A stretch of 34,771 bases of DNA from an uncultured Candidatus Saccharibacteria bacterium (GTDB lineage: Bacteria > Patescibacteriota > Saccharimonadia > Saccharimonadales > Saccharimonadaceae), in assembly GCA_947302765.1 (NCBI GenBank), contig CAMYWN010000005.1, positions 1 through 34,771 of the forward strand, read 5' to 3'. Position numbers and translations under genes: made by a program. The notes under the pieces are model-generated. The model did no database searches. It had not been told where the DNA came from and saw only the letters and a list, made by a program, of their open reading frames with translations. The number at the start of each line of letters is the position of its first letter. The first letter of the stretch is position 1. Of the stretch, positions 2,550 to 3,910 are shown in pieces.

Positions 2550-3910
2550 GCATAGATTCTACGCGGGCGGGTGACGGGTCTGGAGGGGTCCCCAAAAGAT
2601 TTTGCGAGAGCAAAATTTTTGGGGAGGAGAAGACCCGGCAGGACCCGCCCGAAGAAGACTTAACTGTGGCAGAAGGACCCGCCCAGGGTTTTTTCGACAT
2701 AAGAAAGAAAGTCGGTCTCGCTCGGGTCGGTACCATCCATACTGCTCATGGCGACATCGAAACCCCCGCTTTTGTCGGAGCAGCAACACGCGCTACCGTC
2801 AAGGCGCTTACGATGAAAGAAATGAGCGAGCTCGGCTCACAAGCGATTTTAGCAAATACTTACCATTTAGTTCTTCGCCCTGGCACGGAGCTGATTCAAC
2901 AAGCCGGTGGCTTGGCGGAATTCTGCTCATGGCATAAACCTACTTTTACTGACTCCGGCGGTTTCCAGATTTTTTCGCTTCCTAATGTCAAAATTACCGA
3001 AAACGGCGTGAAGTTTAAATCTCACATTGACGGCGCAAATTTCGAAATCACCCCAGAATCTTCTATGCAGGCCCAGTGGGAGATTGGCGCCGATATTCAT
3101 ATGGCCTTTGACCATCTAGCTAAATCCGAAAGCTACGAAGACATGAAAGAGGCTATGGAGCGCACGCACCGCTGGCTAGATCGCTGCGTTGAGGAGCACG
3201 GAAGACTAATGGAGGCTTTACGCACCAATAGTAGAAATAATGACGACACGCTTCGGGCGGGTGACGGGTCTGGAGGGGCCCCCAATGATTTTGCTTTAAG
3301 CAAAATCATTGGGGAGGAGAAGACCCGGCAGGACCCGCCCGAAGGCTATCGACAGTATCTCTACGCCGTCGTTCAGGGCGGCAAGTTTAATGATCTTCGC
3401 GCCGAATCGGCAGAGTATTGTGCTAGCAAGAATCCAGACGGCTTCGGTATTGGTGGTGTTTTTACGGCGGATGGCATGGATAACATGCTAAAAACCGTGA
3501 ATAGTATCTTGCCGGAGAACAAACCGAGGCATCTTCTAGGTATGGGGCAGGAACCAATCGATTTGTTCGTCGGCGCCGAGTTCGGATGCGATACTTTTGA
3601 TTGTGTTGGGCCTACACGTATGGCCAGGAACGGTTCGCTCTACACCAAAAATGGCCGCATTAATATCAAAAATGCTAAATATACCCACGATTTCTCTCCC
3701 CTCGAACCCGACTGTAACTGCGAATGTTGTAAAAATTACACACGTGCCTACCTACACCATCTCTTCAAGACCGACGAAATCACCGCCAAAGTCCTCGCCA
3801 GTATTCATAATGAATACTTTATCGTCCACACAGTAGACAACATCCGCGCTTCCTTACTAGACGACACCTTCGCCGACTACAAAAAGTCTTTTCTCTCGAG
3901 ATACTATTAA
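2543..3910 (+). CDS. tgt: Queuine tRNA-ribosyltransferase carrying two in-frame palindromic insertions
   Basis: [35 protein letters not shown] zinc site; start overlaps the queA stop (ATGTTGA). Confidence 0.95.
2564..2651 (+). repeat. Palindromic element family A, copy 1 (88 bp, in frame near the tgt start)
   Basis: CGGGCGGGT…ACCCGCCCG terminal IR; inner stem CCCCAAAAGATTTTGC/GCAAAATTTTTGGGG; encodes [30 protein letters not shown]. Confidence 0.93.
3251..3344 (+). repeat. Palindromic element family A, copy 2 (in frame inside tgt)
   Basis: 12-bp perfect terminal IR CTTCGGGCGGGT/ACCCGCCCGAAG; inner palindrome CCCCAATGATTTTGCTT-T-AAGCAAAATCATTGGGG; encodes [30 protein letters not shown]. Confidence 0.95.

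Follow-up and report, generated by a model that had tools for sequence, protein, structure and literature searches.

Palindromic elements carried in frame by tgt and other genes across a genus of Saccharibacteria

How does the gene of a tRNA-modifying enzyme come to hold two similar palindromes and still keep a single open reading frame? The question is raised by tgt in a contig stretch of 34,771 nucleotides (hereafter the window) from an uncultured Candidatus Saccharibacteria bacterium. An initial annotation, made from the sequence alone, had described two ~88-bp elements with identical termini in one reading frame of an otherwise intact-looking Tgt, one in the N-terminal region and one between the motifs RTHRWLDRC and VVQGG, and had likened them in concept to the Rickettsia palindromic elements (RPE), which were reportedly described by Ogata in 2000 and 2002. 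To our knowledge, protein-coding palindromes among bacteria have been a peculiarity of the Rickettsiales. The answer proposed here is that the palindromes are probably non-autonomous selfish DNA elements of a Saccharibacteria genus, which would be translated through host proteins where they lie in frame.

Elements of the window and their place in Tgt

The features of the window on which the argument rests are the following:

1263 to 2549, + strand: queA open reading frame with a family B-type insert; it overlaps the start of tgt
2084 to 2142, + strand: family B match inside queA, in frame (profile match, E 3.3e-7)
2543 to 3910, + strand: open reading frame of tgt, queuine tRNA-ribosyltransferase, with both family A inserts
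2564 to 2651, + strand: family A element, copy 1, in frame near the Tgt N-terminus
2665 to 2686, + strand: probable degenerate copy of the element 3' end (GAAGGACCCGCCCAG; repeat family D9), in frame, 3' of copy 1
3254 to 3341, + strand: family A element, copy 2, in frame, in the Tgt helix-to-strand loop before VVQGG
21699 to 21747, + strand: short intergenic relative with the common outer stem (GGGCGGGTGAC..GACAGGACCCGCCC) and a different short inner stem
21772 to 21859, + strand: intergenic family A element, 97% identical to copy 1

The description given by the annotation was confirmed. Copies 1 and 2 are each 88 nt long, have identical termini and 85% identity (gapless over 86 nt), and are both open in the single frame of the tgt ORF, the product of which matches the Pfam TGT family (PF01702, E 8.6e-126) and aligns with solved Tgt enzymes on either side of the second insert. 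As RNA, the two copies fold at -55 and -59 kcal/mol compared to shuffle means of about -31 and -32 kcal/mol (z -7.1 and -7.4; none of 200 shuffles was equally good). Elsewhere in the window, a ribosomal protein L10 leader (RF00557, 52.1 bits) was found at 20911-21033 on the minus strand, and a four-unit tandem 27-nt repeat (TCTAATTGGAGTAGAGACCGCAGCGGC) lies at 15555-15662 inside a minus-strand ORF.

Copy 2 is located between RTHRWLDRC and YAVVQGG, where the loop of the T. maritima (2ash) and Z. mobilis enzymes comprises about 8-13 residues; helix-to-strand connections of a TIM barrel are expected to lie away from the catalytic side. Copy 1 follows the residues MLSIDST and precedes the enzyme body, and the Tgt proteins of relatives, which read ..DVDMLKFDIEKRDGLARVG in this region, start with MLKFDIEKRDGLARVG directly after the queA overlap. 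Since the ancestral start is retained upstream of the element, copy 1 is likely to be translated, less certainly than copy 2 because of an in-frame GTG just behind copy 1 that may serve as an alternative start. In the AlphaFold model of this Tgt (mean pLDDT 71.6), residues 1-47 and 242-266 have a pLDDT below 50 and the C-terminal half is well folded; judged from these poorly modeled insert regions and the well-folded C-terminal half, the enzyme would tolerate both inserts.

Dispersal and reading frame

The annotation had allowed that the element might have no copies beyond the window, and this did not hold. In the genome to which the window belongs, viewed through its nine longest contigs and through searches, BLAST returned nine full family A copies plus partial matches, and a covariance model built from ten family A copies gave 29 matches, five of which are antisense matches of the same palindromes, leaving 24 places; a further copy (contig C60) scored in a smaller covariance search only, for a total of about 25. 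Families A and B are both present in this genome, and its intragenic, in-frame family A copies include two in tgt. Others lie in genes that, from their sequence, presumably encode topoisomerase I, with three copies of which two are reversed, a TypA/LepA-like GTPase, arginyl-tRNA synthetase, and exonuclease I, where the copy is reversed.

Searches of related genomes, which the annotation had suggested, returned a dispersed family. With the covariance model, matches were obtained in 79 of the 175 genus genomes; a genome had up to 21 copies, no more than 25 candidates being scored in each. In an order-wide sample, 48 of 394 genomes had a match: 39 belong to the same genus (own genome included), six to sister genera of the family and three to other families, and the matches outside the genus are few and mostly marginal. 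Additionally, a scan of 85,462 species with the exact pattern of the family A 3' half (the core motif, and hence family A only) gave 88 stretches, 87 in Saccharibacteria and one in Jannaschia that is taken as chance; the named Saccharibacteria are mostly metagenome-assembled genomes from the rumen or gut of sheep, goat, yak, buffalo and roe deer. The same scan gave zero matches in Rickettsiales, no match was found when viruses, phages and plasmids were searched for the element, and the elements match no known RNA family among the Rfam covariance models. The family proposed from two copies is real, and its extent had been understated: it is genus-wide, comprises at least three families and has insertion hotspots.

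Reading frame was assessed in the relatives by calling a copy intragenic when its ORF extends for 70 or more open codons in either direction from it. Counted as copies, some of which may be shared by descent (several come from IleRS and Tgt orthologues) and are thus not all independent insertions, 38 of 84 distinct family A elements are intragenic, 29 in forward and nine in reverse orientation, and all 38 are in frame and stop-free with zero candidate broken genes; about half of the family A copies lie outside long ORFs. Among 66 distinct family B matches, a sample that is not unbiased as several copies were fetched because of the Tgt loop, 52 are in frame (all 52 stop-free) and none is out of frame. 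When random insertion into genes of the own genome was simulated and scored with a classifier of the same kind, 10.9% of the insertions came out in frame and 89.1% out of frame. Since the lengths of the elements differ modulo 3, the frame is set by the total insertion and not by the element length. As expected, only 3 of 95 copies are open in the forward frame that runs into the TGA of GGGTGAC.

Pfam domains found around the inserts include Ile/Leu/Met/Val-type and Trp/Tyr-type synthetases, the exonuclease I C-terminal domain, a PriA/helicase-type protein, class V aminotransferase, a FAD-binding (MurB-like) domain, the YchF C-terminal domain and a penicillin-binding transpeptidase. On this pattern of open frames, the inserts would be translated as an extra peptide within the host proteins. 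The hairpins are located inside essential genes, and they could instead be removed by intron-like splicing of the mRNA or passed over by the translating ribosome, a form of bypass for which the mitochondrial byps of Magnusiomyces are a precedent as far as they are cited in PMC6649704; this is highly improbable, since splicing or bypass needs neither frame nor open sequence and 90 of 90 intragenic copies keep both, compared to the 10.9% expected.

Turnover at the Tgt and QueA loops

Alignment of Tgt orthologues, which had been proposed as a check for presence or absence, was carried out for 51 members of the genus. Of these, 19 have a short loop between RTHxWLxRC and YAVVQGG, and the loop is 34-61 residues long in the 32 that carry an insert, a ratio that is not a genus frequency as the set was made of the 30 best-scoring orthologues and 20 picked for an interrupted match. 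The inserts belong to family A, to family B, to a third kind (D), or show A-type ends around a B core (loci L148 and L159); because A-type ends enclose a B core at these two loci, the elements are modular. The loop varies in length even when it holds no element (12-22 residues), as it would if the inserts were an ordinary variable-length, repetitive loop or domain of Tgt. That reading has next to no probability left: unrelated genes and intergenic sites contain the same sequence, copies outside tgt refute it, unrelated palindromes occupy the same place in different species, and the insert is absent from the 19 genus orthologues as well as from the short loops of T. maritima and Z. mobilis.

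The loop is thus an insertion hotspot, the state of which changes almost at random on the Tgt tree. With the loop left out of the alignment, the insert state needs 27 changes on this tree compared to a shuffled mean of 28.1, a count to be read with the many weak branches of the tree; for the larger groups, the starred branches by themselves require 5-6 changes. Well-supported neighbours also differ, with family B in L154 and D in L165, and with no insert in L118 and family A in L135. Neither a clean pair of empty and occupied sites nor a target-site duplication was found among the relatives. In the closest candidate pair, the flanks are 92% identical and the whole loop is different; because the difference spans the entire loop, whole-loop recombination could explain some of the turnover.

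A turn in QueA is a second recurrent hotspot, as eight orthologues carry a family B-type insert (L116-L145 and others) and others do not. In the window, the family B match in queA is partial, its flanking open frame comprises 279 and 134 codons, and the foreign-looking insert as a whole extends to approximately position 2260. The arms at this turn overlap conserved host codons, and stems measure 10-17 with the insert versus 5-11 in uninserted orthologues, the windows of the inserted genes including some core sequence. Given that core sequence, the overlap together with the longer stems is no more than suggestive of arms copied from the host flanks.

Stems, movement and known palindrome systems

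The structural alignment of family A comprises 97 copies (95 distinct), and standard pairs are formed in 96.9% of its pair cells. Cells changed on both sides number 409, compared to 114 in shuffles and 28-59 when partner columns were slid. Conservation is found mostly at unpaired or module-edge positions (GGGTGA, GGCAGGACCC, TGGAGGGG and GGGGAGGA), and is partly by construction because the loci were collected with the 3'-half pattern. These motifs make up an outer module, GGGTGAC/GGCAGGACCC, and an inner module, GGAGGGG/GGGGAGGA, of family A, and family B has a branched core. The stems of family A, on the other hand, occur in 46-48 different sequences that are nearly always complementary. In the two outer helices, G.U pairs (1.2-1.5%) are as rare as A.C mismatches (0.8-1.8%), whereas the inner helix shows 5.2% G.U versus 0.7% A.C. 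Selection on RNA folding alone is expected to tolerate G.U much better than A.C. The equal rarity of both in the outer helices therefore suggests that these locus-specific, nearly pure Watson–Crick arms are kept up at the DNA level in a templated manner, and the G.U excess of the inner helix is still compatible with selection acting on the RNA.

That excess, the great stability of the folds, their strong covariation around conserved internal loops and the half of family A copies that lie outside long ORFs would all suit a structured regulatory RNA (RNase processing or translation-pausing hairpins) selected in mRNA, with coding being incidental. Such an RNA is an unlikely explanation, given that insertion in both orientations relative to the gene yields different sense RNA, the outer helices are equally poor in G.U and A.C, whether a given gene has an insert varies erratically from one sister species to the next, and the elements have no Rfam match.

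Template switching is an established route to the creation and repair of palindrome arms (PMC8794818). A template switch that inverts the inner part was considered and rejected, as the inner modules are in forward orientation relative to the outer ones in 117 cases and inverted in none. Arms as inverted copies of the host flanks were likewise rejected at Tgt (mean scores of 5.7 versus 5.6 in controls), and because these scores equal the controls, the 32-nt inverted repeat at 3231-3262/3333-3364 (81%) is not significant beyond the element itself. In family B, the arms measure about 20 bp, are different at almost every locus and have a 1-nt bulge in the 5' arm in 39 cases and in the 3' arm in 11, often 12-14 bp from the core. 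A fixed extrahelical base within a stem whose sequence is free is reminiscent, by analogy only, of integron attC sites, which are recognised as folded single strands.

For the selfish elements proposed here, with dispersal in both orientations, covarying structure, retained frame and turnover between families at hotspots taken as observed, the following course is envisaged. The elements would insert into genes and intergenic sites in either orientation, and intragenic insertions would persist only where the frame is kept and the site is a tolerated surface loop, under strong purifying selection on frame and loop position; those retained would be read through to give an extra peptide. Element identity would reside in the conserved internal-loop modules, with joining stems that are free in sequence and kept only in their pairing. 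A factor acting in trans may mobilise the elements by recognising their folded hairpin, possibly in the form of single-stranded or cruciform DNA; alternatively, template switching at replication forks may insert the element. Upkeep of the arms could occur by template switching that copies one arm onto the other. A bolder reading, a new class of mobile palindromes, is tentative and rather doubtful: the hairpin shape and not the stem sequence would be recognised by an enzyme acting on folded DNA, the stems would be rewritten at each site with arms written from local DNA, and families would compete for the same loops, constantly remodelling essential enzymes across a genus of ultrasmall episymbionts.

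HUH enzymes recognise imperfect hairpins with conserved unpaired bases. The elements have this form and the own genome encodes one Y1 transposase, so that REP-type or IS200-type repeats moved by a Y1 (HUH) transposase had to be considered. This is very unlikely, as no more than 8 of 175 genus genomes have a Y1_Tnp match, chiefly in fragmentary form, and it is absent from the copy-rich genomes G129, G053, G045, G203 and G155; the sole Y1 gene of the own genome, a 153-aa IS200-like gene (C66:3430-3786, locus L103), is flanked by hairpins visibly different from the palindromes and unrelated to them. Reverse transcriptase was also rejected as the mover: its domains occur in 98 of 175 genus genomes, with four matches in the own genome (C46, C47 and C97), and RVT_1 is unmatched in the copy-rich G005, G155 and G030. 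No longer autonomous element with the same ends, or with distant paired ends, was found in the sequence stretches examined.

Short, non-autonomous, hairpin-forming dispersed repeats are known as REP/RAYT elements and MITEs, and the Saccharibacteria elements resemble them in each of these properties. They differ from REP/RAYT in that no cognate Y1/RAYT gene tracks them; with regard to MITEs, the sequence examined contained no longer element sharing their ends, and among the relatives, which offered no clean empty site, no target duplication was seen. RPE are ~150 nt in length, whereas the Saccharibacteria elements are of ~80-90 nt and belong to another phylum. The parallel in concept drawn by the annotation is sound: like RPE, the Saccharibacteria palindromes are dispersed, lie in frame and in both orientations in unrelated essential protein-coding genes, and form several families in one genome group (the Tgt site by itself has A, B and D). 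RPE comprise several families of palindromic repeats that occupy unrelated genes in frame and for which no transposase is known (review PMC10969869), and their repeat identity is reported to decay with time (PMC6649704); the Saccharibacteria arms, in contrast, are locus-specific and nearly perfect, and families repeatedly replace one another at one loop. The lack of any Rickettsiales match holds for the family A core motif that was scanned. Wolbachia palindromic elements (WPE) are likewise in frame within genes and mostly stop-free, in addA, addB and priA (PMC4224334), but their host is unrelated and the family A core motif has only its one Jannaschia match outside Saccharibacteria. The elements thus constitute a protein-coding palindrome system that is RPE/WPE-like in kind, for which RPE membership is unsupported by the core motif and the arms differ. 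In the mitochondria of Nematomorpha, perfect inverted repeats with complementary arms occur in coding genes and template switching has been proposed (PMC6649704); these palindromes share with the present ones arms kept complementary inside coding genes, but no conserved core repeat is shared among them as that paper is read, whereas conserved loop modules define the dispersed families of Saccharibacteria.

A search of freely accessible journal papers found no coding palindromes described in Saccharibacteria or in other CPR bacteria, in agreement with the annotation, which knew of no such family in Saccharibacteria. With an apparently independent and richer system in Saccharibacteria, in-frame invasion of proteins by selfish DNA looks recurrent in reduced, host-dependent genomes. 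The same Tgt loop with and without inserts of different families in dozens of species is a natural experiment. The system also bears on the movement of elements for which no transposase is visible, and on how palindrome arms remain complementary as their sequence changes. The inserts will also confuse gene models and alignments of Saccharibacteria. Apart from the palindromes, the own genome holds about eight copies of a ~100-nt non-coding cassette at C4:31180-33838 (locus L041), composed of a GGTCGCGCTAACAACGCGGCC hairpin followed by TTTTTCGCGAAATTTACAT..ATAATG and GAAAGGAG..ATG, which looks like a repeated terminator-promoter-RBS unit placed before a row of small genes.
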